A stretch of 64,000 nt of DNA from the NCBI GenBank assembly GCA_005808665.1, contig SYLG01000104.1, positions 1 through 64,000 of the forward strand, read 5' to 3'. The notes beneath the pieces are model-generated. The model ran no database searches, was not told the origin of the DNA, and saw nothing but the letters and a program-made list of their open reading frames with translations. The position numbers and the translations under genes are program-made. The first letter of the stretch is position 1; each line of letters opens with the position of its first letter. The stretch comes from Planctomycetia bacterium (GTDB taxonomy: Bacteria; Planctomycetota; Planctomycetia; Gemmatales; Gemmataceae). Shown piece by piece: positions 7,705-27,891 of this stretch.

Positions 7705-8061
7705 ATGGTTCGTCGTTTTATTCTTGCTTTGGTGTTGCCCATCTTGGCAGCATTCATTCCTTCTGCTCAAGCAGGCGGCCATCGGCCTTTTTTCCCGGAA
7801 AGCTACTATGACGGTGTGGCTTTTTGGGGACACAGAATTCCCTTTGTACCAATCCGGTGTGTCCAGGCACCAGAAACCCCGCCATGGCATGCTTTTTACC
7901 CGCAAGGAGCGTATGCCACTCGTCCGGTTCCGATGGCATATCCCTTTTGGCCAAGTACAGGGCACACAAACAGTGCAGGCCCGATCCACACGAATTATCA
8001 AGGGTTTCCTGGAAGCGTGGTCCCAATGCCTGGCAATTACCCATCTTACTGGGGTCGGTAA
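7705..8061 (+). CDS. Small exported protein, Pro/Tyr/Phe-rich
   Basis: 118 residues. The start at ATG 7705 gives a clean Sec signal peptide, MVRRFILALVLPILAAFIPSAQA, preceded by an AGAGG ribosome-binding site. The mature part is short and rich in Pro, Tyr, Phe, Gly and His (HRPFFPESYYDG, YPQGAYATRPVPMAYPFWP), with no recognisable domain. The composition is that of a low-complexity secreted or envelope protein. It stands alone between the GH38-like gene and the FHA gene. Function unknown. Confidence 0.6.
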   Translation: MVRRFILALVLPILAAFIPSAQAGGHRPFFPESYYDGVAFWGHRIPFVPIRCVQAPETPPWHAFYPQGAYATRPVPMAYPFWPSTGHTNSAGPIHTNYQGFPGSVVPMPGNYPSYWGR

Positions 8062-8244
8062 TCAAAAAGACCCTGGGGGGATCTCCATGACTGAAAGGGA
8101 GCGGTTGTCAGACGGTACGGGAATTTTTTTTACAAAATTCACTACTATCTCTTTTCCTCCGAAATAGGGATCCAATACCATGGATCTATCGTCCCATATC
8201 CTGTTTCGTTTTTTGGCAGGATGTTTTTTGGAGGAAAAACGCTC

Positions 8245-8733
8245 ATGATCCCGGTACAAGGTCGGCTCGTTCCCGAGGGAGGGGGCGATACTATCGAATT
8301 GGTTCGCCATGTTTTGGTTTTGGGAAGGCGACCGTCCTGTGATATTCAAATGGAATACCCGAACATTTCTGGCCAGCACATGCGGCTGAATTTCAAGATG
8401 GGGTATTGGACCGCAGAAGATTTGGGAAGTGCCAATGGGATCAAGGTGAATGGCTCCCGGGTTCAATCCCGCACGGTTTACCCGGGGGATATCCTTACAA
8501 TCGGAAAGCGCAATTTCAAACTTCACTATGAGCTTCCCCGAACCTCCACGGAGGATGATGAAGATTTGGCCCCCATTGTTACGCAGGCGGTTACCCCATC
8601 TGACACTCAGGACGGGGTAGATCTATCAGAATCGTTACTGGAAAAGGCCGGAATTAGTCGGAGGCGTTTAGGCAAGGATGCCCCCAAGCCGGAGGGATTT
8701 GATGCGGCCGATTTTCTCCTGGATCCGAATTAG
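8245..8733 (+). CDS. FHA domain protein
   Basis: 162 residues with an N-terminal forkhead-associated domain, a phosphothreonine-binding module. FHA landmarks are VLVLGRRPSCDIQ (Gly-Arg strand), PNISGQHMRL (Ser and His contacts) and LGSANGIKVNG (the usual S-T-N-G reads S-A-N-G). The C-terminal 60 residues are acidic and probably unstructured (STEDDEDLAP, DGVDLSESL). The start at ATG 8245 is favoured over the track start 8221 because GGAGG sits 10 bases before it. The protein probably docks onto a Ser/Thr-kinase substrate; no kinase gene is in the window. A bidirectional terminator follows. Confidence 0.85.
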   Translation: MIPVQGRLVPEGGGDTIELVRHVLVLGRRPSCDIQMEYPNISGQHMRLNFKMGYWTAEDLGSANGIKVNGSRVQSRTVYPGDILTIGKRNFKLHYELPRTSTEDDEDLAPIVTQAVTPSDTQDGVDLSESLLEKAGISRRRLGKDAPKPEGFDAADFLLDPN

Positions 8734-8782
8734 AAGGTGTTATTCGCACCAAAATCGATTTTGTAAGTCTGTCAAGGTAACG

Positions 8783-8814
8783 AAAAAGCCCCGGCGCATT
8801 CCCCGGGGCTTTTT
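8783..8814. terminator. Bidirectional intrinsic terminator
   Basis: AAAAAGCCCCGG, an 8-base loop, then CCGGGGCTTTTT form a 12-bp perfect stem with A and T tracts on the two sides. It lies between the convergent FHA and lipoprotein genes and can terminate both. Confidence 0.9.
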
Positions 8815-8836
8815 TCTTGGTCCGTAAACGGTTAGC

Positions 8837-9133
8837 CTACTTTGGTTTAGCTTCCCCAACCTGTTTGGTGTCGGCCTTGGGTTTGGCATCGGTTTTCGAT
8901 TTGTCCCCGGCCTCTGGTTTAACTTCGGTTTTGGATTTGTCCCCGGCCTCTGGTTTAACCTCAGTTTTGCCTTCCTGCTTAGCCCGTTGGGTTTCTTGAT
9001 TTTTTCGGCTATCTTCTTCCGTTTTTTTGATGACTGCTTCGGGTTTGGCACTCCCTTTTTTGGGCTCATCGCCACATCCGGTCATCAGAAAGGCAGCAAA
9101 GCTCGCTGCGGTAAACAAGGACACCCTCTTCAT
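8837..9133 (-). CDS. Small Lys/Glu-rich lipoprotein with tandem repeats
   Basis: 98 residues. MKRVSLFTAASFAAFLMTGCGDEP is a lipoprotein signal with lipobox M-T-G-C (Cys20), preceded by an AAGGAG ribosome-binding site 8 bases from the ATG. The mature protein is almost entirely charged and low-complexity, with two near-identical 12-residue units (KTEVKPEAGDKS) and a third degenerate one (KTDAKPKADTK). It is likely a periplasm-facing, disordered lipid-anchored protein. Simple Lys/Pro/Ala-rich lipoproteins of this type have no assigned function. Confidence 0.75.
   Translation of the reverse strand: MKRVSLFTAASFAAFLMTGCGDEPKKGSAKPEAVIKKTEEDSRKNQETQRAKQEGKTEVKPEAGDKSKTEVKPEAGDKSKTDAKPKADTKQVGEAKPK
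8891..8962. repeat. Two tandem 36-bp repeats inside the lipoprotein gene
   Basis: Positions 8891-8926 and 8927-8962 are identical except for two bases (tcgat/tggat and acttc/acctc). Each encodes a 12-residue KSKTEVKPEAGD unit. An in-frame tandem duplication like this can expand or contract by replication slippage. Confidence 0.9.
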
Positions 9134-9463
9134 CGCTGTAACTCCTTGAAAGGGAAAACGAGAGATAAATCCCCATGGAATATGGGGGTTGGCAAAGGGC
9201 AGCCATGACTACCCTCTGAGTATCCTAGGTCCAAAAGCAGTTTTTTGGGAGGGTCCAGGACAATTTTCATTGGATGTTTTTGCTAATAACCCCAGGCGAA
9301 ACCTGATTCAATGATTGTAATTGTTTTTTTCGGGACCACAAACCATTGGTTTCGCAATCCGGCCAAGGTCCAAATGGTACGCCCATGGAATCAAAAAATG
9401 CTAATCCCTTCGATAAAACCAATCAACGATAAAAAACACGGATTAAGCCAAATCATTTAATAG
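9134..9463. other. Spacer without a recognisable gene
   Basis: 330 bases between the lipoprotein start and the methyltransferase stop, both on the minus strand. I see the AAGGAG site of the lipoprotein near 9142-9147 and an A+T-rich stretch that could hold its promoter, but no ORF with family features, repeat or RNA structure. Confidence 0.4.
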
Positions 9464-10219
9464 CTAATTTCGGATCCAAATCATCCGATACCTTGCCAAA
9501 CCACCCAAAAAAGGAAACCACCTGAACAAATGTCGGTCAAACCGGGAGAGCAAAGGCCAGTTGCTGCCAGTTCCCCCAAAACGCCTAAGTGCAGAGATGA
9601 ATTCAAACGATTCCACTTTATGATTGGGAAAGGCAAGCAGCCAAAGCTTTAGATTCGCGTTGGACCAAGGCGTTTCGTCCCGGGTTCGTTCCTTTCCCGG
9701 GTAGGGAAGCCACTTTCTTGCCAGGGTAATTAGAGGATTACCTCCCCAAGGCTCGCAAAAAACCGCCATTCCCCGTGGTGCCAGAATGCGACGGACCTCA
9801 TTGATGGCCGCTTTTGTATCGAGGTGATGGAGGATTGCATTGCCCCAAAGTCGTTCCACGGAAGCATTTGCCAAGGGCAATCGTTCGGCATCGGCTTGAA
9901 AAAAAGGGGTGGAACATCCGAATCGGTCGTGGCGGTTCTTTGCTTCCGTGCAATACCCCAAGGACAAATCTGTCCCAAAAACAATGGCCCCCCGGCTGGT
10001 TAGTTCCATGGCCGCCCACCCATGGCCGGCACCAAGGTCAAGGGTGATTTTTCCATTTAGGGGTTCAAGGAGGTCCAATCCCCTTCGTATCCAGGGGGCA
10101 TGGTCCAAATAGGCGTTTTTGGTGCTGTTTTCCAAGGTCAAATCCCTTTGAAGGGCTCGTTCCTTGGCTTGGCGGTCGTGGAATAACTGTTCTTCAAGGA
10201 GACGGCGGGTGCAATCCAT
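9464..10219 (-). CDS. Class I SAM-dependent methyltransferase
   Basis: 251 residues. The SAM-binding motif I ITLDLGAGHGWAA is at about residues 58-70, the acidic strand-2 residue in VFGTDLSLGY, motif II/III in FQADAERLPLANASVERLW, and the post-motif AILHHLDTKAAINEVRRILAPRG is typical of the UbiE/Methyltransf_11 group. The C-terminal 90 residues are basic and aromatic. It lies 24 bases downstream of fabF on the same strand, so it may be the last gene of the fatty-acid cluster. The substrate cannot be read from the sequence; small molecules such as lipids or quinones are more likely than nucleic acids for this group. Confidence 0.85.
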   Translation of the reverse strand: MDCTRRLLEEQLFHDRQAKERALQRDLTLENSTKNAYLDHAPWIRRGLDLLEPLNGKITLDLGAGHGWAAMELTSRGAIVFGTDLSLGYCTEAKNRHDRFGCSTPFFQADAERLPLANASVERLWGNAILHHLDTKAAINEVRRILAPRGMAVFCEPWGGNPLITLARKWLPYPGKERTRDETPWSNANLKLWLLAFPNHKVESFEFISALRRFGGTGSNWPLLSRFDRHLFRWFPFLGGLARYRMIWIRN

Positions 10220-10243
10220 GGCGGGCCCCGCATGAGAAAAGGA

Positions 10244-11485
10244 TCAACCCGTAAAGCGTCCGAAAACGACCGAGCTGTTGTGGCCACCAAAGCCGAAACT
10301 ATTGGAAAGGGCATAGTTCAATGCCGTTTTTCTGGCTTGATTGGGAACATAATCCAGATCACATTCCGGGTCAGGATTATCCAGATTGATGGTCGGGTGA
10401 AGGATTTTTTCGTGAAGGGAAAGGATGGTTGCAATGGCCTCAACCCCGCCCGAGGCTCCCAAAAGGTGACCAAGCATGGACTTGGTACTGCTTATGGCCA
10501 AGGATTTTGAATGGGCTCCAAATACGGTTTTGATCGCCTTGGTTTCAGCGATGTCGCCAAGCGGAGTACTGGTGCCGTGAGCGTTGATGTAGCCAACCTG
10601 TTCCGGATTCAACCCAGCATCTTTTAGGGCAATGCGCATGGCATTGGAAGCGCCAATGCCATCCGGATGGGGCGCTGTAATATGATAAGCGTCTGCTGTG
10701 GCCCCAATTCCCAAAACCTCCGCATAAATGGTAGCCCCCCTGTTTTTTGCGTGTTCGAGTTCCTCGAGGACGATGATGCCTGCTCCTTCGCTCAATACGA
10801 AACCGTCCCGATCCCGGTCAAAGGGGCGACTAGCTTTGGTAAAATCGTCATTCCGTTGGGAAAGTGCCTTGGCTGAGGAAAATCCTCCCAAACCCATTGG
10901 GGTTATTCCTGCTTCGCTACCCCCGGTAATCATTACCTCCGCCCGGTTGTATTGAATGGCACGAAGGGCATCCCCTATGGAGTGGGTTGCGGAGGCACAG
11001 GCGGTGGATACGCAAGTATTGATGCCTGAAAAACCGAGTTCAATGGATACATTTCCTGCAGCTGCATTGGAAATCATTTTGGGAATGGTGAATGGACTGA
11101 TTTTGTTCGGACCATCTTTTATGTAGCGACCATGTTGATCTTCAAATTCCCTCAATCCACCGATGCCTGACCCGACAATTACCCCACACCGGAACGGATC
11201 TTCCTTGGAAAGGTCCAAACCGGAGTGGCCAAACGCCTCCTGTGCGGCCACAACGGCAAATTGGGCAAAGCGATCCAACCGCCTCAACTGTTTGGGATCC
11301 AGCGATTCGCGAAGGGGAAAGGATTTGACTTCACCTGCAAATTGGACCTTAAACGGTGCTGGGTCAAATAATTCAATCCGACTTATCCCGCTTTTGCCCT
11401 CTAAAAGTCCCTGCCACATGGTTGCGACATCCTGTCCCAGGGAGGTGACAACACCAAGCCCCGTGACAACCACTCGACGGGTCAT
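10244..11485 (-). CDS. fabF: 3-oxoacyl-ACP synthase II (KAS II)
   Basis: 413 residues, normal length for FabF. It condenses malonyl-ACP with acyl-ACP in fatty-acid elongation. The catalytic Cys163 lies in STACASATH; the two active-site His are H303 in [10 protein letters not shown] and H340 in [10 protein letters not shown]. The C-terminal [17 protein letters not shown] is typical of the thiolase fold. Its start overlaps the acpP stop by ATGA, giving translational coupling with its carrier protein. Confidence 0.97.
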
Positions 11486-11727
11486 TTCTTCGCAAGCTCC
11501 TTTTCGATAAAATCAATGGCCTCACCTACCGACTTGATTTTTTCCGCCTGATCCTCAGGAATGGAGATTTCAAACTCCTCTTCAAGCTCCATAACGAGTT
11601 CAACAATATCCAGGGAATCGGCGCCCAATTGATCGAAAGCGGTGGTTCGGGCAACTTGGTCGATATTGACTCCAAGGCTTTCCACAACAATCTTGACCAC
11701 TCGTTCTTCTATTGAAGCGTTAACCAC
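11482..11727 (-). CDS. acpP: Acyl carrier protein
   Basis: The small acidic four-helix carrier of growing acyl chains. The 4'-phosphopantetheine attachment Ser lies in [19 protein letters not shown]. The track ORF begins at 11766, but a GTG at 11727 preceded by GGAGGG (11735-11740, 7-base spacing) gives an 81-residue protein of standard length starting V(M)VNASIEERV, so I place the start there. It is coupled to fabF by ATGA overlap. A 246-base gap separates this start from the upstream fabD, where many bacteria carry fabG. Confidence 0.95.
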
Positions 11728-11973
11728 TGCTATGCCCTCCTGGGTCGGGCTCTTTAACTCACCCATTCAACGGATCCATTAGGTTCCGCTGCAACGGATT
11801 TATCATATTTCCACCGGTTATGGCAAGGTGACTTCCCTGCACCTTATCTAATTTACCGAGGGAACTTGGAGCTCGAACCGTACAACTTGATGATCCTAGG
11901 ATATGAGGAATTGATACCTTGGAAAGGTCTGGTCCCCATAAAACCCCAGCCCTTCCATTATTGATTTTGTCTG
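11728..11973. other. fabD-acpP spacer, no gene
   Basis: The 246 bases between the fabD stop and the acpP GTG contain the acpP ribosome-binding site and possibly its own promoter. No remnant of fabG can be read in either strand. Confidence 0.45.
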
Positions 11974-12879
11974 TTACCCTGGAACATTAATACAAGGCAA
12001 CTTGCGATCGATTCGCTTGAGTAGTCCCGCCAAAACTCTCCCGGGCCCGACTTCGTAAAACTTGTCTACTCCCTGGGCAATCATTTGCCGAATGCATGCC
12101 TCCCAGCGAACAGGTTCCACGACCTGCTTGGCTAATAATCCTGATATGGATTCCGGGGCACCATGGGGTAAACCCGTGACATTGGAAAAAACGGGAATAC
12201 GGGGTGCAACAAAACCGACCCTATTCAGGGCATCCCTAAGGGGGCTCATCGCAGGGTCCATTACGGGGGTATGAAATGCCCCTGCAACAGAGAGGCGAAT
12301 CGTTTTTCCCCCTGCCGCTTGGGCGAGCGTTTCTACTTCCTCCAAAGCGGGAATCTCCCCGCTAATTACAAGGTTTCCCGGACAAAGATAATTGGCAATT
12401 CGGACAATGCCCCTGGATTGACCTTGGCGGACCATTTCTTCAAGTTTGTTTTCGTCAAGAAGTAGAACACTTGACATCGAGGAGGGGATTTTCTCGGCCG
12501 CCATTTGCATGACCGTGCCCCGAAGGTGAACCAACCGGAGGCCGGTCTCAAAATTGATGGCGCCCGCAAATGCCAAGGCTGTGTATTCACCCAGGCTAAG
12601 CCCAGCAGTCATGGAACAGGCCATCAAATCATCATTGGCCAAATTTCCCAAATCGTGAAGAGCGGCCATGCTGGCAACAAAAAGGGCGGGTTGGCTAATG
12701 TCTGTGGCGTTGATTCGTTCAGCCGGGCCGTTTCGACAAATATCCAACAAATCAAATCCCAAAATTTGGGAAGCCTGATCATAGAGGGATTGAACCGAGG
12801 CATATTTTTCAGCTAAGGCAACACCCATACCCACATATTGTGCCCCTTGACCAGGGAAGAGAATCGCTGTCCGGGGCAT
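11974..12879 (-). CDS. fabD: Malonyl-CoA:ACP transacylase
   Basis: 301 residues, typical for FabD, which loads malonate onto ACP. N-terminal FPGQGAQYVGMG is the family signature, the nucleophile Ser95 is in GLSLGEYTALAF, and the partner His203 is in GAFHTPVMDPA. The C-terminal FYEVGPGRVLAGLLKRI is also diagnostic. It lies 25 bases after plsX on the minus strand, in the classical rpmF-plsX-fab order. Confidence 0.97.
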   Translation of the reverse strand: MPRTAILFPGQGAQYVGMGVALAEKYASVQSLYDQASQILGFDLLDICRNGPAERINATDISQPALFVASMAALHDLGNLANDDLMACSMTAGLSLGEYTALAFAGAINFETGLRLVHLRGTVMQMAAEKIPSSMSSVLLLDENKLEEMVRQGQSRGIVRIANYLCPGNLVISGEIPALEEVETLAQAAGGKTIRLSVAGAFHTPVMDPAMSPLRDALNRVGFVAPRIPVFSNVTGLPHGAPESISGLLAKQVVEPVRWEACIRQMIAQGVDKFYEVGPGRVLAGLLKRIDRKLPCINVPG

Positions 12880-12904
12880 GGTGAAACCTGTTAAAGGAGA
12901 ATAA

Positions 12905-13921
12905 TCAAATGGAAGCCAAGCTGAGATGTTGTTGTTGGCTTTCCAGTTCTTTGGTAATCAATTGATTGAGACCGGCCCTTGCATGTCGGGCGGCAACCGC
13001 CAACGCATTGCGGATCGCCCTATCATCAGAACTGCCATGGCAAACGATGCAAATGCCATCAATACCCAAAAGCGGTGCCCCGCCAAACTCGCTGTAGTGA
13101 TATTTCTGTGCCAAATTGGTGAGTGTGTTGATTCCTTTGTCCCGTTCGACGGTCAGGCTTTCACTAATCTCGCGGGCAACCACTTTCAGGATGAATTCGG
13201 TTATGCCTTCACACACTTTAAGGATCACATTTCCAACAAAACCATCGCAAATGACAACATCCACGCTGCCCCGATGAATGTCCCTACCCTCGACATTCCC
13301 CTTGTAAGAGCCTTTAATAGGAAATTTGTTGAAAAGGTCCGCAGTTATGCGGTGAAGCTCAGGTCCCTTGCCATCCTCCGAACCTACATTGATTAGCCCA
13401 ATGGAGGGATTTTCTTTTTTGAGAATATGCCGTGCGTAAATCAGGCCCATTACCCCATATTGGTACAAGTGCGTAGCTTTGGGATAAATGTTTGCTCCGA
13501 CATCAAGAATAAGACAAGGCCCCCGCATGGTGGGCATAATCGTGGCAATGCCAGGCCGCTCAACCCCAGCGAGGAATCGCCGGGACATCAAACCGCCGGC
13601 AACCATGGCCCCGGTATTTCCGGCACTAACGATGCCGTCAACCCGAGCCTGAGCCAGCAGCTGCCAGCATCGACTAATGGAATTGTCCGGTTTTCGGCGC
13701 AAACCAACCGTCGGGCTTTCCTCCATCCCGATTGCTTGCGAGCAATGAAAGACGCCAAGGCGGTCACTACGCCCAAATTGATCCAGAAGGGGCTGGATTT
13801 GGGCTTCATCTCCCACCAATGTCACACGGAGGTCACCATCTTGGGAAATGGCTTGCACTGCTCCGGCAACGATGGGACCAGGGGCATAATCGCCCCCCAT
13901 CGCGTCAAGCGCGATATGCAT
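12905..13921 (-). CDS. plsX: Phosphate acyltransferase PlsX
   Basis: 338 residues. It makes acyl-phosphate from acyl-ACP for phospholipid synthesis. MHIALDAMGGDYAPGPIVAGAV is the canonical N-terminus; GNTGAMVAGGLM, ILDVGANIYPKATHLYQYGVMG and the C-terminal EFGGAPLLGIDGICIVCHGSS are all conserved PlsX blocks. The gene begins 3 bases after the rpmF stop, the conserved rpmF-plsX arrangement. Confidence 0.97.
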   Translation of the reverse strand: MHIALDAMGGDYAPGPIVAGAVQAISQDGDLRVTLVGDEAQIQPLLDQFGRSDRLGVFHCSQAIGMEESPTVGLRRKPDNSISRCWQLLAQARVDGIVSAGNTGAMVAGGLMSRRFLAGVERPGIATIMPTMRGPCLILDVGANIYPKATHLYQYGVMGLIYARHILKKENPSIGLINVGSEDGKGPELHRITADLFNKFPIKGSYKGNVEGRDIHRGSVDVVICDGFVGNVILKVCEGITEFILKVVAREISESLTVERDKGINTLTNLAQKYHYSEFGGAPLLGIDGICIVCHGSSDDRAIRNALAVAARHARAGLNQLITKELESQQQHLSLASI

Positions 13922-13924
13922 GGA

Positions 13925-14110
13925 TCACTTCTCCGACCCTAGCCGGAGGATATCCTTCCCCTGGTAATGTCCACAATTGCCGCAAACTTTGTGCGCCAAA
14001 ACGGGCTGATCACAATTTTTGCAATATTGAATGGCAAGGGGCTTCACCGCATGGTGGGAGCGCCTCATGCCTCGCCTTGATGAGGAAATTCGTCTCTTTG
14101 GTACGGCCAT
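13925..14110 (-). CDS. rpmF: 50S ribosomal protein L32
   Basis: 61 residues. MAVPKRRISSSRRGMRRSHHA is the standard L32 N-terminus, followed by a zinc ribbon with paired cysteines CKNC and CGNC. It is therefore the zinc-binding (C+) form. It is the first gene of the fatty-acid cluster; the DUF177 (yceD) gene often found upstream is absent, and a divergent HIT gene begins instead. Confidence 0.97.
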   Translation of the reverse strand: MAVPKRRISSSRRGMRRSHHAVKPLAIQYCKNCDQPVLAHKVCGNCGHYQGKDILRLGSEK

Positions 14111-14245
14111 GGCTCAACCTGTTCGTCCGTTTTGTTCTGATTCGGATAAAAACATAGCATAAGACTTGAACCACCAAATGACCAGTCCGGCTTTTGCTCT
14201 TGGGTCAGGAACAAAAGAATTTCAAACGATTGGAACCAATTTTCC

Positions 14246-14773
14246 ATGGAACGGCTTTGGGCACCTTGGAGACTCTCCTACCTTACCGGGTCCACCCCTC
14301 CAGAACGGGACCAGAACTGTTTTCTTTGTTTGGCGGCAAGAATCGAGAATTTGGCCTCGTTTTCTCCGGAAAACCTGGTTGTTGCCACCTCCAATGATAT
14401 TCTTGTTATATTAAACAGATTTCCATATAGCAGTGGCCACCTTTTGATTTCACCCAAACGCCATGTTGCTTCGGTGGAGGACCTTAACCGAACAGAATCA
14501 CTTGCCCTCATGACCCAACTACAGATCGCCACCCGGGCCCTTCGTATGGCTTTCCATCCGGACGGGTTCAATGTGGGTATTAACCTTGGGCAAATCGCTG
14601 GAGCAGGTGTGCCCGGCCACCTTCATGTTCATATCGTTCCCCGGTGGAATGGTGACCATAACTTTATGCCCGTTACTGGGGGAACCCGTGTCATGCCAAT
14701 ACTGCTCGAGGACTCATGGAGCAAAATCCATGCGGCTTTTATGGCAATTAGGGACTCTGAACCCCTTGCCTAA
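14246..14773 (+). CDS. HIT-family hydrolase
   Basis: 175 residues of the histidine-triad superfamily, which hydrolyse or transfer nucleotide alpha-phosphates (for example Ap4A- or AMP-linked compounds). The triad is GHLHVHIVPRW, the CFLC pair near residue 25 forms half of the zinc site seen in many HIT proteins, and NRFPYSSGHLLISPKRHV is the conserved substrate-side block. It is divergent from rpmF and lies 36 bases upstream of the dNTPase gene, suggesting a small nucleotide-hygiene operon. Confidence 0.92.
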   Translation: MERLWAPWRLSYLTGSTPPERDQNCFLCLAARIENLASFSPENLVVATSNDILVILNRFPYSSGHLLISPKRHVASVEDLNRTESLALMTQLQIATRALRMAFHPDGFNVGINLGQIAGAGVPGHLHVHIVPRWNGDHNFMPVTGGTRVMPILLEDSWSKIHAAFMAIRDSEPLA

Positions 14774-14809
14774 ACGAGCTCAATTGTTTCCCAACCTGAG
14801 GATTCCGCC

Positions 14810-15922
14810 ATGTCCTTGGCTCCCTATGCCTTCCCGGATTCGAATTCCCTTGGAAGGGACCATCCGGAACCTCAACATGCCTATCGCGGCCCCTTTCAAA
14901 GGGATCGTGACCGGATAATCCACTCGACCGCTTTTAGGCGGTTAATGAACAAAACCCAGGTCCTTGTCGCCCAAACCAACGATCATCACCGAACCCGTTT
15001 GACCCACACCCTGGAGGTGGCACAAATTGGTAGAACCCTGGCTCGCGCTTTGAACCTCAATGAGGATTTGACCGAGGCGATTGCCTTGTCCCATGATTTA
15101 GGACACCCCCCCTTTGGCCATGCGGGAGAAAGCGAGCTGGCGGTGTGCATGGAAAATCATGGGGGATATGAACACAACAGTCATGCCCTAAGGGTTGTGG
15201 AGGTGCTTGAAAACCGCTATCCGGGCTTCCCCGGGCTCAACCTCACTTGGGAAGTTCGCGAAGCCATGGCCCATCACAGCAAATCCCCCAACGAGGAAAT
15301 GAAGCGTTTTTTAAGAGACGGAAGGCCATTTCTGGAGGCTCAATTGGCGGATGCTGTCGATTCCCTGGCGTACGATGCCCATGATGTTGATGATGCTTTG
15401 GACCTTGGATTGATTCTACCCGTCGATGTGGAGGCCATTCCCCTTTGTGCCCTGGTTCTGGAAAAAGCCAGGGAGCGCTTTGGGGTTATTCCACCCGAAG
15501 CCTTTAGCTCCACCCTGGTCCGGGCATTGGTCGACATTCAGGTTGAGGATCTCTTGACCCAAACCCGGGAAAACCTGAAGGAGGCAAAAATCGGGTCTAT
15601 TCTGGATGTTAGGGCGTTTCCGGGGCTTTTGGTGGGGCCAGGGTTAAGGATCCAGGCCTTGAAATCAGGCCTGGAAAGATTCCTGAAGGAACGAGTTTAC
15701 CAACACCCCAAAGTATTACGAATGACTTTTAAAGGCAGAAGGATCCTTCGCAAACTTTTTGACGAATTTGTCCGCTTGCCCAACCTCTTGCCCGAAAGGA
15801 ATCAACAACAAATCCCCTCCTGGGGAATCCATCGCGTCATTACCGATTATTTGGCTGGAATGACCGATCGGTTTGCCCAAACCGAGTACCTTCAACTTTT
15901 CGAACCCTTTCATTCGGTGTAG
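14810..15922 (+). CDS. dgt: dNTP triphosphohydrolase (dGTPase-like)
   Basis: 370 residues of the HD superfamily; family members hydrolyse dGTP or other dNTPs to the nucleoside and triphosphate. RDRDRIIHSTAFRRLMNKTQV is the conserved N-terminal block, H66 in RLTHTLEVAQIGR and H95-D96 in LSHDLGHPPFGHAGE supply the metal site, and SLAYDAHDVDDALDLGLI carries the last conserved Asp. The length fits the shorter bacterial dGTPase-like group rather than the ~505-residue E. coli Dgt, so dNTP specificity is uncertain. The gene follows the HIT gene on the same strand. Confidence 0.93.
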   Translation: MSLAPYAFPDSNSLGRDHPEPQHAYRGPFQRDRDRIIHSTAFRRLMNKTQVLVAQTNDHHRTRLTHTLEVAQIGRTLARALNLNEDLTEAIALSHDLGHPPFGHAGESELAVCMENHGGYEHNSHALRVVEVLENRYPGFPGLNLTWEVREAMAHHSKSPNEEMKRFLRDGRPFLEAQLADAVDSLAYDAHDVDDALDLGLILPVDVEAIPLCALVLEKARERFGVIPPEAFSSTLVRALVDIQVEDLLTQTRENLKEAKIGSILDVRAFPGLLVGPGLRIQALKSGLERFLKERVYQHPKVLRMTFKGRRILRKLFDEFVRLPNLLPERNQQQIPSWGIHRVITDYLAGMTDRFAQTEYLQLFEPFHSV

Positions 15923-15986
15923 ACTATTAGAGTGGAGTTCCGTCCCTTCAAGCCCAAGGAAACTCCGTCCCAAAGAAATCATTCCC

Positions 15987-18222: not shown

Positions 18223-21200
18223 CTAATCCTGACTTCTGAGTTGCTTTAACAAGCCCAAACGGGCCACCACCCAAACCGAAAGTAGGCTTGAACCAAGCCC
18301 ACAAATCCCCACGAGGCCTGAAAGGAGGAGGATCCGCACCCACGCAAGGCCCATGGCACCCAACTGGGGCCAAACCGCAAGGAGGGCCGCACCCATTCCT
18401 GTCAATAGGCCCGCCAGAACCAGTACCCCTGATTCCGTCATTACTAGGATACCGATTCGATTCCTGGAAAACCCCAATGCGGCCAAAAGGGCCCATTCCG
18501 CAGACCGTTCCAGCATGCCCCTTGCCTGGGCAATTGCCAACCCCACCATTCCCAGGAGTAGTCCCAACCAACCTAGTGCCTGAAAAGTAGCCAGGTAGGT
18601 ATTCTCCACCGCCAGAAAGGATTCCAGCCTATCCCGACTGGAACGAATGACGGGACCCAATGGGGCCAAACCCGTGGCCAAAAGATTGATTAGGGCGGTT
18701 TCGTCCTGTTGGGGACAACCAACCAAAAGTACGCGAAAACCCTGAATCGCCTTGTCCATTTCCAAAAGGCGTTTTTGGGAAAGTAATAATTCCGATTGAA
18801 ATACGCTTTCAGAAAGTATACCGCCAATGGTTATATCAAATCCCCCGGATTCCTCCTTTCCAAAGGAAACCTTATCCCCCATTCCTTTGTGAAGTGTCCA
18901 CATTAGGGTATTCTTTTCCCCTATGGCCGGATTCCCGGAGCCTTCCAAAACCCGCCAAGGATTGTCCTCATACCCTTTGGCTTTTGCTGCAAAACGAAAT
19001 CCGCCCCGATCCAATAACAATTGTGGAACCCCGATCAACCGGGGATTACCTGATTGAAGCAAGTTGAGGCAACTAATGTCATCCCCGTCCCGAAGGCGGA
19101 GGGCCACAATCTCAGCCCGATCCAAAACCTCGTCTGCCCTTTGCCTGGCCATGGCTGGATCCGTTTTTGCCGCCCGTTCAATGTTGTCAAGGAGCTCCGA
19201 TTTCCCGGCGGCGGTTTCAAATCCTTGAAACAAGGGCTGATCCAACTCGATCCAATATCGAAATCCACCCGACCAGGATGCCTTGTCACCTACATCTCCG
19301 GTTTGGGCGGAGCGATGGAAGGCATCCACGGCGAAAAGTAAAAATACGGAAGAGGCCAAGAGTCCCACGCTTAAAAGGCTTCGCCCAGGTTTGCGTGAGA
19401 CACCCCGTAAACCAAGTATGATCCAATGTCGGCTATCCAATATGCCCCAAAAATCCCAGACCTTTAACAACCGGTTAAAGAGCACCAATAAGGATGACAA
19501 GCCAAGTGCCCCCGCACCAAAAAAACACCCCGCCCTGGCCTCGGCGTCCACCATCCTTGTGCCAACCATGGATAAACAAACCACCCCAAAAAAACATCCC
19601 AGCAAGCTCCCAATAAAAAGCCCATTCCCCTTGCCAGTTCCACATCTAAACTGTTTCGATCCTCCATCGGCTCGGTCGCCCAATAATAATTCATTTGCGT
19701 TGTGACCAAGAATGGACCTCGTTCGCCAAAAGGTGCTCAGTAGAAGCGTTGCCAAGGTGATGAAACTCCCGATAATCAAGGCCCTTGGCGAGGTGGATAC
19801 GAATAACTTTCCCGCCAAATCACCTCCAGGCCAATGGGATTCAAGCCAAAACGACAACAAGCCACAATACAAAACCGCAAGGGGTAGGCCGAGGGCGATT
19901 CCAACCAAACCTGGTCCGATGGCTTCGGCCAAAATGCGTCCCATAATCCGCCGCCTGGTCCAACCAAGGGCGGCAAACAATCCCCATTCCCCCATGCGCC
20001 TTTCCAAATGAAGGCGTAACAAAAGGGAAAATAGGCCAATGGCGGAAACCAACAGGAAGAAACTAAAACCCAAAAAGAGACCGGAGAAATCCATATTGCC
20101 AGCCGAACGCAAATCCGCCTGTTGAGCCAAAGGAAGCCAGGATAATCCGGATGCTGCCGGATCAATATTCGACAATAGTTTTTCCAAATAGGCGCCTCTC
20201 GCCTGATCCGCATCCACTCCTTCGGCCTCCAGGATTACCGAGGTGTAGTGGCCAAAGCGGCTTCCAAACAGCTTTTGTGCCAAAGCCAATTCGACAATTA
20301 CTTTGGGTGAGGCACGGTATTCCTTCCAGAAAGTATCATCAATGGGTTGGATCCGCCTGTTGTCATAAGGGAACGGTGGATTCCAATCCCTAAGGCTAAG
20401 CTTGTCGGTGATTCCGGGAAACTCCGGCGCCAAGTCAAAATCGACCGCCATCCCCTTTGGTGGCAACCTGCCAGCCACCGGTAACCGAACGGAAAGCTCC
20501 CTGGGTGGGCCGGAATGCTCCGCCGGGAAATAGGTTATTGCAATATCATTGCCCGGTTGGCCATTAAGGGGGCTTCCCGGAAAATCCAAAAGCATGGCGT
20601 TTCCGGGAGGCGGCACAGGAAGGGCCTTGTCCCCAAACCCAAGCGGTTGGGAGATTCCCGCAATCACCGAATAGGCCAATTCCCTGTTTTCAAGTTGGAT
20701 CTTATTGACCAGATGGACCAAGACCGGTTTTGAAACCAGGGCAACCTCATGTGCGGCCTTTCCCGCAGCCAAAACAAAAGGGTCTGCCAGGTAAAATTGA
20801 CGGCTTTCCAGGGTCAGATGGTTTCTGTTGAGGCGGTACCAATCCAGAAGGGCGGCCTTGGTAAGGATCCCTTTTTCTCCTATTTCCCTTGTCATTGACT
20901 CGCCCAATTGACCTTGCCATTCCCGGCGGGTAAGGGTGCCGTCCTTGTCCCGGTCATGCTTTGCGAAAAGGGATTCCACCCGATCCCTTGGGGATTTCAA
21001 AACAAGGCCATAATCCCCAAGGGTCAGACGGGATTTGTCAATCGATGGAAAGTCACCTGTCCCGGAGGAGAGGAGCCCATTTATTCTGCTAGGGCAATTA
21101 AGTGCCTTTTGTAGATCCAATAAAGGCATAAAAAGAACAGGTTCCGACGATATCCCACCCGTAAGGGAAAAGGATCCCGCCCCATTTCCGTCCCTTTTGG

Positions 21201-21756
21201 TCCCCCCCGCAAGGGTTCCAAGGCAATCAACCTCAAGGGTAGCAAGGCCTGAAGCAAAATCCTTTCGGCCCAGCAAGGACTCCCTGGGCGTATCGAATGG
21301 AAGTGCCAGGGTCAGGTTGAGTCGGGGGGCCCCATTATTCCCAATTAACCGTGCGAGGACAGGATTCATCCAAATTCCAGGTTGCCAACCCGGAGATTTT
21401 GTAAAACCATTCCAAAAGGACTCATTTACCCCATAGATTTGAACACCCCGAACCGCCAAACCTTCCGGGCCAATCAGGGCCACCGATCCTTTGGTGGTAA
21501 GAATTCCTGAATTAATGATCCCTTTTTGGGATAAACGATCCGCAATATCCTCCGGAACAAGCCTCGGAAATATCATCGCCCGTTTGACCCAACCGAGTTT
21601 CTCCCGTCCCACCCGGGCCAGGGAGTCCCGCAGGGAATCTCCAACCAACAAGGCCCCCGTGACCACCATGGTGGAAAGGGCAGCACCTAATACCAGGAAA
21701 ATCCAATCCCGCAAATAAAACCGGATCGACGCACCAAGAAGGCCAACGAGACTCAT
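18223..21756 (-). CDS. FtsX-family ABC permease with EF-hand-like loop
   Basis: 1177 residues, about three times a single MacB permease. An N-terminal membrane helix (about residues 15-38) is followed by a long periplasmic region, a first FtsX bundle (about 558-690, FFLLVSAIGLFSLLLRLHLERR), further helices near 710-780, a second periplasmic region and a C-terminal FtsX bundle (FQALGWLGLLLGMVGLAIAQA onward). It therefore resembles two MacB/LolE-like halves in one chain. In the first periplasmic region residues 268-279 read DRDKDGTLTRRE, a perfect 12-residue EF-hand calcium loop. The adjacent gene supplies the ATPase, overlapping by ATGA. The pair probably moves lipoproteins, lipids or peptides out of the inner membrane, or acts mechanically on the envelope; the substrate is unknown. 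Confidence 0.88.
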   Translation of the reverse strand: MSLVGLLGASIRFYLRDWIFLVLGAALSTMVVTGALLVGDSLRDSLARVGREKLGWVKRAMIFPRLVPEDIADRLSQKGIINSGILTTKGSVALIGPEGLAVRGVQIYGVNESFWNGFTKSPGWQPGIWMNPVLARLIGNNGAPRLNLTLALPFDTPRESLLGRKDFASGLATLEVDCLGTLAGGTKRDGNGAGSFSLTGGISSEPVLFMPLLDLQKALNCPSRINGLLSSGTGDFPSIDKSRLTLGDYGLVLKSPRDRVESLFAKHDRDKDGTLTRREWQGQLGESMTREIGEKGILTKAALLDWYRLNRNHLTLESRQFYLADPFVLAAGKAAHEVALVSKPVLVHLVNKIQLENRELAYSVIAGISQPLGFGDKALPVPPPGNAMLLDFPGSPLNGQPGNDIAITYFPAEHSGPPRELSVRLPVAGRLPPKGMAVDFDLAPEFPGITDKLSLRDWNPPFPYDNRRIQPIDDTFWKEYRASPKVIVELALAQKLFGSRFGHYTSVILEAEGVDADQARGAYLEKLLSNIDPAASGLSWLPLAQQADLRSAGNMDFSGLFLGFSFFLLVSAIGLFSLLLRLHLERRMGEWGLFAALGWTRRRIMGRILAEAIGPGLVGIALGLPLAVLYCGLLSFWLESHWPGGDLAGKLFVSTSPRALIIGSFITLATLLLSTFWRTRSILGHNANELLLGDRADGGSKQFRCGTGKGNGLFIGSLLGCFFGVVCLSMVGTRMVDAEARAGCFFGAGALGLSSLLVLFNRLLKVWDFWGILDSRHWIILGLRGVSRKPGRSLLSVGLLASSVFLLFAVDAFHRSAQTGDVGDKASWSGGFRYWIELDQPLFQGFETAAGKSELLDNIERAAKTDPAMARQRADEVLDRAEIVALRLRDGDDISCLNLLQSGNPRLIGVPQLLLDRGGFRFAAKAKGYEDNPWRVLEGSGNPAIGEKNTLMWTLHKGMGDKVSFGKEESGGFDITIGGILSESVFQSELLLSQKRLLEMDKAIQGFRVLLVGCPQQDETALINLLATGLAPLGPVIRSSRDRLESFLAVENTYLATFQALGWLGLLLGMVGLAIAQARGMLERSAEWALLAALGFSRNRIGILVMTESGVLVLAGLLTGMGAALLAVWPQLGAMGLAWVRILLLSGLVGICGLGSSLLSVWVVARLGLLKQLRSQD

Positions 21757-24393: not shown

Positions 24394-26355
24394 ATGGCAA
24401 GAAATCCATTGGACAGGGTTTGCAACAGTGAATTGCCTGGTTTAACCCGGGTCGCAAGGCTTTTTCCCAATCGTGATTCGGCCGTTGCCGAGATTGCCAG
24501 GCTTCAGGCAGAATGTCGCCTCCCCGTGGGAAGCATTCATATCATTTCCGACATCCATGGCGAGGACGCAAAACTTCGTCATGTGCTTCACAATGGTTCG
24601 GGAACCCTAAGGCCCCTGATTGAAGAATTGTTTGCCTCGGACCTGAATCCCGAGGAATTGCGCCGACTGGTTTCCCTGTTCTTTTATCCCGACGAAATGC
24701 TGGCCCTTGAAAAGGAGCGGCTTGGCCCAGACGAAGAACTCGATGCCTTTTTCGAGTTGGCCCTTTCCCGATTGGTCCGCCTGGTTAGGGTCATTTCCAA
24801 AAATCGAAGCATTGCCCGCATTCATGAAGTTGCTGACCCTGCCGTCCGCGATTTTCTTTTGGAATTAGCCTGTGGACCATCCTCCCAAACCCAACCCGAA
24901 TTCCAAAAAACATTGATTCGGGGCGTGGTTGCCCATGGGAGAGGTGCCCGGTTGGCACACCAAATCATCAATCTCATTCGTGGCCTTGCGGTCGAAGAGC
25001 TTATCATTGGGGGAGATTGTTGGGATCGGGGCCCTCGTGGGGACAAGGTGGTGGACCACCTTATGCACCAACCCAGGCTAAGCTTTATTTGGGGCAACCA
25101 CGACACGGCCTGGGTGGGTGCTTCCATGGGGCACGGTGCTTGTATCGCCCAAGTTTGTCGCATTTCCCTCCGGTATGGCCGTATCGAACAACTCGAGGAG
25201 GGGTATGGCATTCCAATGTGGCCACTGATCAAGCTTGCCCAATCAACCTATGCGGATGACCCTGCCAAATCGTTCAGACCCAAGCTTGCCACCCAGCGGG
25301 ATCCCCTGTTGGTGGCCCGGATGCAGAAAGCCGCGGCCATCATCCAATTCAAGCTGGAGGCCGCTGCCATTCGACGGCACCCCGAATGGAAACTGGAAAG
25401 TCGGCGCTTGCTTCATCACCTGTCCGCTGACAAGAAAACCATTACCATTGATGGCCAGGAATATCCCCTCTCTGATGGAGCCTTTCCGACAATCAACCCG
25501 GATCGACCTTACGAACTTTCCGACCAGGAGGCGACATGCCTTGCTGCGCTCACCACCTCTTTTACCGGTTCGGTGAAATTGAAGGACCATGTCAGGTTTC
25601 TTCACAGGAATGGGTCACTTTGGGTAGTACGGCGCAATCATCTGGTTTTTCACGGCTGTATTCCCTGTGATGAGGCGGGTGAATTTTTACCCATTGAGGT
25701 CAATGGCCAACTGGTCCGTGGCCGCACTTTGTTTGAGGCACTTGAACTTCTCCTGGCCAGGGTATTTGATCACCCTGTTTTGGAAGACCTGGACTGGATG
25801 TGGTACCTTTGGTGTGGCCCATTGAGCCCACTATTTGGCAAGGACAAGATTGCCACTTTTGAAATTGACTTTGTCGCCAATCTTGCCACCCACAAAGAGA
25901 CCAAAAACCCTTATTTCACCCTCATCCACGAAACCTGGTTTTGCAACAAAGTGTTGGAGGAATTTGGTGTTGATCCCGAAAAAGGGCTCATTGTCAACGG
26001 CCATGTACCCGTAAAAATAGAATTGGGAGAAAATCCCGTCAAAAAATCGGGAAAGGCCATCACCATTGACGGAGCTTTCTCGGAAGCGTACGGCGATTAT
26101 GGCTATACCCTGCTCATTGAACCAGCAGGAACATTCCTTGCCCTTCACCACCATTTCGAACAGGTGGAAAAAGCAGTTCGCGATGGAGTCGATATCATTC
26201 CTCAGGTTTCCGTTATCCGTGAAGAAACCGAAATTCCCATGCGCGGGGACACCGAAGAGGTTTTCGCAATGACCGCCACCTGCACTCTTTTGGAGCGCCT
26301 TGTCATGGCATACAGGGCCAATCAAATTGCCGAATCTTTTTCGGTGAAACCATGA
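24394..26355 (+). CDS. fbp: Fructose-1,6-bisphosphatase class III
   Basis: 653 residues, typical of the Firmicutes-type class III FBPase, which removes the 1-phosphate in gluconeogenesis. It has a calcineurin-like metal site: HIISDIHGEDAKLRHVLHNG, IIGGDCWDRGPRGDKVVDHLM, FIWGNHDTAWVGASMGHGACI and, late in the chain, IVNGHVPVKI. The family pattern of a helical insertion between these blocks is present. Its stop overlaps the start of the GH13 gene (ATGA). Divergent from the DUF1559 gene upstream. Class III is unlike the class I/II enzymes of most bacteria. Confidence 0.95.
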   Translation: MARNPLDRVCNSELPGLTRVARLFPNRDSAVAEIARLQAECRLPVGSIHIISDIHGEDAKLRHVLHNGSGTLRPLIEELFASDLNPEELRRLVSLFFYPDEMLALEKERLGPDEELDAFFELALSRLVRLVRVISKNRSIARIHEVADPAVRDFLLELACGPSSQTQPEFQKTLIRGVVAHGRGARLAHQIINLIRGLAVEELIIGGDCWDRGPRGDKVVDHLMHQPRLSFIWGNHDTAWVGASMGHGACIAQVCRISLRYGRIEQLEEGYGIPMWPLIKLAQSTYADDPAKSFRPKLATQRDPLLVARMQKAAAIIQFKLEAAAIRRHPEWKLESRRLLHHLSADKKTITIDGQEYPLSDGAFPTINPDRPYELSDQEATCLAALTTSFTGSVKLKDHVRFLHRNGSLWVVRRNHLVFHGCIPCDEAGEFLPIEVNGQLVRGRTLFEALELLLARVFDHPVLEDLDWMWYLWCGPLSPLFGKDKIATFEIDFVANLATHKETKNPYFTLIHETWFCNKVLEEFGVDPEKGLIVNGHVPVKIELGENPVKKSGKAITIDGAFSEAYGDYGYTLLIEPAGTFLALHHHFEQVEKAVRDGVDIIPQVSVIREETEIPMRGDTEEVFAMTATCTLLERLVMAYRANQIAESFSVKP

Positions 26356-27845
26356 ATCCTTCCCCACGCATCTACCAGGCTTCGGCTAGGCACCTTGTGG
26401 CCGGGACAAATCCTTCCTGCCCCCCGGGAACCCTGGATAACATTAGCACCGGGTGGCTAGAGCAATTGGCTGACAAAGGCTTTGATTGGTTTTATCTTTA
26501 TGGGGTATGGGATTCGGGGAAAGCGGGTCAGGTTGTTTCCAGGGCCCACCCAAAGATGTGGGCCAAACAGGCGACCGATTTGCCCCTTGGATGTATAGGT
26601 GATGTTTCCGGATCTCCGTTTGCCATCAGGGAATACTGTCAGGATCCCCGCCTGGGGGATCCTGAAGCCTTGGCAAGGCTGAGGGGGCGGTGCCAAAAAG
26701 CAGGGCTCAAGTTGATGCTCGACTTTGTTGTCAATCACACGGCATTGGACCATTCCTGGGTGATCCACCGGCCCGAGTGGTTTGTGCAGGCCCATGGCGA
26801 AGCGGCGGATGTTCGACCGGAAGGGTTCGTTCCCCTTCCCACCATGAATGGTTGGCGTCTCTTCGCACACGGTAAAGATCCCTATTTTCCTGCCTGGGTC
26901 GATACCCTCCAATTGAATTTGCTCCACCCCGATCTGATCCAGGCCCACACGGAAAACCTGCTCCAGGCAGCCGGGCAATGCGATGGATTACGGGCAGACA
27001 TGGCCATGCTTGCACTTTCCGATATTTTCAGGAAAACCTGGGGCGGCCTTGCTGATCCCGCCGATGGATCGCCTTTGGCGGATAAGGATTTCTGGACAAC
27101 CGCCATCGACCGGTTGCGGATTGCCTTCCCGAACTGCCTCCTTTGCGGCGAGATCTATTGGTCGTTGGAAGGACGAATGTTGGATATGGGTTTTGATTTG
27201 GCCTATGACAAATCCGCCTATGACCTATTGCGGCATGGGGATGGGAGGGGCCTCAATGCTTTTGAAACCGCAGTGGCCAAAAGGTTACCCCATTTATTAC
27301 GATTTGGCGAAAACCATGACGAGGAACGAATGTTTTCCGCCTTTGGCAAAGAGAGGGCAATGGCCGCATTACCGCTCCTTTTGCTTCATAATGGACCGAT
27401 TTTGGTTCATGATGGCCAACTTGAGGGGAGTCTGGTAAATGCTGGTATCCACCTGGCCCGCAAAGCCCCCGAGTCCATTGATTGTGCGGTTGCCAAATCC
27501 GCAGACCTCTTTTGCAAACTCCAATCAAACCTTCAAATCGCGGTACCCATTGGAGTACACCAGGCATGGGAAGGAAACCCATCGCATGAGTGCCTTGTGA
27601 TAAATGGTTGGCAATCGGACACCAAGGCCTACCTGTTATGCGTCAATTACGCCGGATATCCTTCGCAAGGGCGTTTACAACTCCCATTGCATTGGATTGG
27701 TGCGGATGGTTTGGAAATGATGGACATTTATGGTGGCCAGCCCTATTCCCGACCTCGTACCGAACAATTGACCGCGGGATTGTTTGTGGATTTGCCCTCT
27801 TTCGGAATGCACCTATTCGAAATATCTTTGTCAAAAATCGCATAA
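26352..27845 (+). CDS. GH13 alpha-amylase-family enzyme
   Basis: 497 residues, no signal peptide, so cytoplasmic. The four GH13 regions are visible: I LMLDFVVNHT (about 121-130), II DGLRADMAML with nucleophile D216, III LLCGEIYW with acid/base E267, and IV RFGENHDEER with H322-D323. It therefore has an intact catalytic set for retaining alpha-glucan hydrolysis or transglycosylation. The exact specificity (amylase, trehalose-related, phosphorylase-like) cannot be fixed by eye. The gene is translationally coupled to class III fbp, suggesting a shared role in mobilising or rerouting glucan and hexose phosphate. It converges on the prenyltransferase-like gene. Confidence 0.92.
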   Translation: MNPSPRIYQASARHLVAGTNPSCPPGTLDNISTGWLEQLADKGFDWFYLYGVWDSGKAGQVVSRAHPKMWAKQATDLPLGCIGDVSGSPFAIREYCQDPRLGDPEALARLRGRCQKAGLKLMLDFVVNHTALDHSWVIHRPEWFVQAHGEAADVRPEGFVPLPTMNGWRLFAHGKDPYFPAWVDTLQLNLLHPDLIQAHTENLLQAAGQCDGLRADMAMLALSDIFRKTWGGLADPADGSPLADKDFWTTAIDRLRIAFPNCLLCGEIYWSLEGRMLDMGFDLAYDKSAYDLLRHGDGRGLNAFETAVAKRLPHLLRFGENHDEERMFSAFGKERAMAALPLLLLHNGPILVHDGQLEGSLVNAGIHLARKAPESIDCAVAKSADLFCKLQSNLQIAVPIGVHQAWEGNPSHECLVINGWQSDTKAYLLCVNYAGYPSQGRLQLPLHWIGADGLEMMDIYGGQPYSRPRTEQLTAGLFVDLPSFGMHLFEISLSKIA

Positions 27846-27891
27846 TGGTTCTGGTAAAACCATGTTCAAATGCGCCGGTTCACTTTCCATT

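Follow-up and report, generated by a model that had tools for sequence, protein, structure and literature searches.

The closest described counterpart of the first of the two genes considered here is the class III fructose-1,6-bisphosphatase (FBPase) of the Bacillus subtilis type (PF06874), which the protein encoded in the window (the whole stretch of 64,000 nucleotides that was analysed) resembles in its full-length profile match and in all of its metallophosphatase motifs. The class III FBPases of Firmicutes and Bacteroidota are, however, only about 35-38% identical to the planctomycete protein and, unlike the gene of the Bacillus subtilis-type enzyme, the window gene shares an operon with a GH13 enzyme. 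For the latter, the top matches in both sequence and fold are 3DHU from Lactobacillus plantarum and AmyB from Thermotoga neapolitana (4GKL), whose catalytic residues are identical to those of the window protein, but whose overall identity is 17-19%, with a TM-score of about 0.62 over the query. GlgE and TreS, the GH13 enzymes of the maltose-1-phosphate pathway, are also among the top fold matches, but they are only 14-17% identical, the TreS cut-off is not reached and a maltokinase neighbour was not recognised. With respect to gene arrangement, pairs annotated as 'glucosidase' (GH63-type) and 'alpha-amylase family glycosyl hydrolase' occur, for example, on Rhizobium and Caballeronia plasmids, and their GH13 member belongs to the same family as that of the window; its neighbour is a GH63 gene, whereas in the window it is an FBPase gene. 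An fbp-GH13 gene pair was not reported in the open-access literature searched, within which the arrangement is undescribed; its parts are members of known superfamilies.

According to the open reading frame list and the sequence, the fbp and GH13 genes of the window are both complete and lie on the same strand, and their GC contents by codon position are similar. The overlap of the fbp stop with the GH13 start in the tetranucleotide ATGA, proposed in the first-pass annotation, was confirmed. The positions of the genes, their junction and the conserved motifs are presented in Table 1.

Table 1. Features of the fbp-GH13 gene pair, in positions of the window; residue numbers refer to the respective protein.
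Feature	Position	Strand	Basis
fbp, class III fructose-1,6-bisphosphatase (FBPase_2), 653 aa	24394..26355	+	ORF, Pfam
FBPase metal-site motif DIHG, residues 53-56	24550..24561	+	
FBPase metal-site motif GDCWDRG, residues 207-213	25012..25032	+	
FBPase motif GNHD, residues 234-237	25093..25104	+	
FBPase motif NGHVP, residues 535-539	25996..26010	+	
ATGA shared by fbp stop and GH13 start	26352..26355	+	
GH13 enzyme, family without characterised member, 497 aa	26352..27845	+	ORF, Pfam, alignment, model
GH13 region I DFVVNH, residues 124-129	26721..26738	+	
GH13 region II GLRADMAM, residues 212-219, nucleophile D216	26985..27008	+	
GH13 region III GEIYW, residues 266-270, acid/base E267	27147..27161	+	
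GH13 region IV ENHDE, residues 320-324, D323	27309..27323	+	
46-base gap, GH13 stop to next gene (convergent)	27846..27891	.	

The first protein matches the Pfam FBPase_2 model over positions 3-638 of 639 (E 7e-193, 642.8 bits, cut-off 27). Its metallophosphatase motifs (DxHG, GDxxDRG, GNHD and a late GH) are intact and are invariant in nine homologues. An AlphaFold model, built on an alignment of four rows only, had a mean pLDDT of 38, too low for the calcineurin-like fold to be judged from it, and no solved structure related to this protein was found. Homologues at the 35-38% level occur in records of Bacteroides, Parabacteroides, Prevotella and Fusobacterium, and strong class III matches were obtained in 13 of 392 genomes sampled from the phylum. 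These occurrences correct the picture of a class found almost exclusively in Firmicutes, which its description as a minority type elsewhere suggests.

The distribution of FBPases was surveyed for classes I, II and III. The class I and class II profiles (PF00316 and PF03320) gave no match in the window genome, and of the three classes only class III was found in it and in six further genomes (G000, G001, G020, G023, G029, G030 and G056 in all). Among 59 relatives, nine genomes matched the class III model over most of its length, and in no genome of the window's family were classes I and III found together; several GH13-bearing genomes carry class I instead of class III. Because it is the only class I-III enzyme detected in its genome, and since the mutual exclusion of classes I and III fits this reading, the window FBPase looks like a general enzyme, and the earlier view of a "dedicated" module is not supported for this gene. 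About half of the relatives, a clade of 12 genomes among them, are without any class I-III FBPase, and the status of sole FBPase is therefore no proof of essentiality. The coupled pair offers a handle on FBPase class replacement in planctomycetes.

The second protein matches part of the barrel of the Pfam Alpha-amylase model (PF00128, E 3.6e-11). The four catalytic regions that had been reported for it are all intact, and R214, D216, E267, H322 and D323 are invariant in the GH13 alignment (n=47). As read, the protein does not begin with anything resembling a signal peptide. Structure prediction gave a confident model (pLDDT 94) whose best fold matches are GH13 structures, but these are generic GH13 relatives only, and no substrate can be read from the fold. 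The closest solved relatives are 17-19% identical and no NCBIfam model reaches its cut-off, which sets the protein apart from ordinary maltogenic amylases, a grouping that the first-pass annotation had named as evidence against its proposal. Maltogenic amylase, neopullulanase and maltodextrin glucosidase were rejected as identities, their matches being weak and partial (for maltodextrin glucosidase, 30.8 bits against 568), as were trehalose-6-phosphate hydrolase, TreC (22.9 bits against a cut-off of 799), and trehalose synthase, TreS, whose model matches weakly and in some relatives, below its cut-off. The sucrose phosphorylase group (GH13_18) was absent among the sequence and fold matches listed.

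In seven planctomycete genomes a class III fbp gene is followed, at a distance of -4 to +2 bases, by a GH13 relative, and the pair is thus not unique to the genome in which it was first seen. The linked pairs represent at least four genera and are 34-66% (GH13) and 51-85% (FBPase) identical to the window proteins. The junction is -4 in the window and in L065, 0 in L036, L107 and L126, +2 in L032, and GTGA in L043; the recurrence of so tight a junction indicates that the overlap is more than chance. The GH13 gene is present in about 21 of the 59 relatives, and all five of them that have both class III fbp and GH13 (G000, G001, G020, G030 and G023) carry the two genes adjacent and co-directional. 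To these were added L107 (UBA969) and L126 (LacPavin), reached via the GH13 sequence; L065 (labelled Singulisphaera sp. GP187) is the sister genome, apparently represented by the same contig as in G001. In the sample of 392 genomes from the phylum, GH13 was detected in 35, and the only carriers of both genes besides the window genome, G117 and G183, have them on different contigs, so the linkage is not general. On present evidence the coupling characterises the window's family rather than the phylum.

In five of the seven pairs (L065, L032, L036, L107 and L126) the GH13 gene is directly followed by a gene for a medium-chain oxidoreductase, whose closest models, PIG3-type NAD(P)H quinone oxidoreductase or alcohol dehydrogenase, are matched below their cut-offs. 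In the sister genome this PIG3-like gene lies at 11576-12592 of L065, and it is missing at the matching place in the window, 27846-27891. A ROK kinase gene, whose top NCBIfam match is polyphosphate-glucose phosphotransferase, far below the cut-off, lies in divergent orientation to fbp in G020, G030, G023 and G029 and adjoins GH13 in G024; in the window genome a ROK kinase gene is located on contig C184, where it overlaps a CPBP-protease-like gene.

Within the window's family, some FBPase was found in 15 of 16 GH13-bearing genomes, compared with 3 of 21 without GH13 (Fisher 1e-6). This raw co-occurrence was rejected as proof, because a 12-genome clade that lacks both GH13 and FBPase drives much of the count. 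When the distribution was checked on a tree of the GlgA protein, which is a proxy only for the species tree, there were four independent contrasts, about two of them agreeing and none opposing. The co-occurrence of GH13 with any FBPase, strong in raw counts, is not significant once ancestry is considered and is suggestive only.

Outside this lineage, a degenerate-pattern search of GTDB genomes confirmed at least 582 loci of the GH13 family, and the neighbours were read in the best 80 of them. These 80 loci come from Planctomycetota, Pseudomonadota, desulfobacteria, Chloroflexota, Cyanobacteriota, Bacteroidota, Actinomycetota and Methanomicrobiales. In annotated records the protein appears as 'alpha-amylase family glycosyl hydrolase', with no curated family name. 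The flanks of 37 of the 80 loci encode, mostly adjacent to GH13, a GH63/MGH1-like protein about 920 aa long, which matches the Pfam mannosylglycerate-hydrolase-like domain; the order in L111 is glk-GH63-GH13. The rpiA gene lies beside GH13 in five of the 80 (L086, L096, L098, L125 and L140; about 0.3 expected), and these loci also hold rpe and partly pgl, tkt and pgi; as the five correspond to about two or three lineages, the count is not one of independent events. Other members have a gene for a HAD phosphatase (L071) or for a phosphoketolase (L112) nearby; neither G6PDH nor 6PGDH was detected when the surroundings of the GH13 loci were searched by motif. Taken together, the ROK kinase, rpe, rpiA, pgl, pgi, tkt and glk neighbours back the link to hexose phosphate made in the first-pass annotation. 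FBPase is rarely a neighbour outside the linked planctomycete group and, since most members of the family are without an FBPase link, the pairing is a lineage-specific arrangement. For a GH13 family that counts hundreds of bacterial and archaeal members and has no curated activity, such recurrent neighbours provide a short list of testable roles.

Two other kinds of neighbourhood were observed. MscS channel genes adjoin GH13 in L089, L093, L099 and L133, and with bestrophin-like/DUF4239 neighbours the list extends to L127, L116, L135, L137 and L290, a hint of osmotic regulation; sulfate permease, ion channel and bile-acid symporter genes occur near GH13 in several lineages. Eight archaeal loci of the Methanoculleus type (L074, L079, L084, L095, L104, L110, L114 and L118) have conserved GH13 neighbours, the GH13 gene mostly standing just after a gene for an FAD-binding reductase-like protein.

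In contrast to the plasmid GH63-GH13 pairs, the window genome has its GH63 relative apart from GH13, among pentose-phosphate genes. On contig C88 36000-54000 (L234), positions 7795-15945, the genes tkt-rpiA-pgl-rpe-glk-GH63 form an operon-like series; all are co-directional and separated by 2-44 bases. Two types of GH63 protein can be distinguished in the relatives by identity to the L042 protein: the first, at 68-100%, occurs mostly in genomes that carry GH13, and the second, at 46-58%, includes the protein of the window genome. The window genome also carries glgA, glgB and a GlgX-type gene, which makes glycogen a possible source of glucose; almost all relatives have GlgA, whether or not they carry a GH13 family member, and glycogen is thus not specifically indicated. 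None of the storage compounds suggested in the first-pass annotation (glycogen, trehalose or a sucrose-like compound) was singled out as the substrate.

We consider it about an even chance that translational coupling makes the pair a two-gene unit of central sugar metabolism in which two inputs to the hexose-phosphate pool are expressed jointly. Support comes from the intact genes, the junction kept across lineages, the lack of a detected class I or II FBPase, and the GH13 neighbours rich in hexose- and pentose-phosphate genes. The FBPase would convert fructose-1,6-bisphosphate to fructose-6-phosphate. As it is the sole class I-III FBPase found, its most likely roles are gluconeogenesis and, around the pentose-phosphate pathway, the recycling of triose phosphate into hexose phosphate, a direction of flux that we infer. 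The GH13 enzyme is most likely an intracellular alpha-glucosidase, which would release free glucose by hydrolysis of a short alpha-glucoside or of a fragment of an alpha-glucan; glycogen fragments or osmolytes are possible substrates. The glucose would be phosphorylated by a kinase encoded elsewhere in the window genome, and the putative benefit of the coupling would be that both inputs remain co-expressed. A wider proposal, that the GH13 family comprises new intracellular alpha-glucosidases, common to many bacteria and methanogens, which supply glucose to a kinase and pentose-phosphate enzymes for NADPH, and that in some planctomycetes the sole FBPase and the PIG3-like third gene complete a glucan-to-NADPH cycle by triose phosphate return, appears decidedly unlikely.

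The pair could also be a product of operon drift, in which a housekeeping FBPase and an unrelated housekeeping GH13 enzyme became neighbours in one planctomycete lineage and have remained so because coupling costs little to maintain, with no common pathway. The general scarcity of the FBPase link in the GH13 family fits this explanation, and so does the tree test in which the seven fbp-linked GH13 proteins, which are fast-evolving, fitted a single clade (p-AU 0.855, the constrained tree being better than the free one): on these sequences they may be one clade, and the pairing may then have arisen once. The FBPase partners, however, do not clearly form one clade in the corresponding test (p-AU 0.028), which leaves room for partner exchange or repeated pairing, and the tight junction was kept while GH13 diverged to about 35% identity and the flanking genes changed. 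Identity between the window and the sister genome is 85% for the FBPase and 66% for the GH13 enzyme, so the latter changes faster, with its catalytic residues kept; for dN/dS, synonymous sites were saturated. On this evidence, drift seems an unlikely explanation.

Equally unlikely is a role in osmolyte turnover, in which GH13 would break down a glucoside osmolyte (such as glucosylglycerate or glucosylglycerol) at falling salinity and the FBPase link would return the carbon to hexose phosphate. The usual GH63 partner, with its mannosylglycerate-hydrolase-like domain, and the channel and transporter neighbours in several lineages agree with such a role, and cyanobacteria possess a known gene for glucosylglycerol hydrolase, albeit of a different type, GHL5 (PMC5002435). 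The name of the Pfam domain, however, marks a relationship rather than a substrate, and the identified neighbours of the fbp-linked clade are a sugar kinase and an oxidoreductase, with no channel among them, nor was a gene for osmolyte synthesis noted at the locus. That the class III protein has a different sugar phosphate as its substrate, such as a glucosyl-acceptor phosphate, and works with GH13 to build or modify a glucoside is very unlikely. The low identity of the planctomycete protein to the Firmicutes and Bacteroidota FBPases would allow this, as would the use of class I by several GH13-bearing genomes, but the FBPase model is matched over its full length with every motif present, and the mutual exclusion of classes I and III in the family fits the replacement of one FBPase by another.

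Elsewhere in the window, positions 18223-21756 encode a large ABC-permease-like protein of 1177 aa with an EF-hand-like stretch, DRDKDGTLTRREW, and this gene adjoins an ABC ATPase gene.
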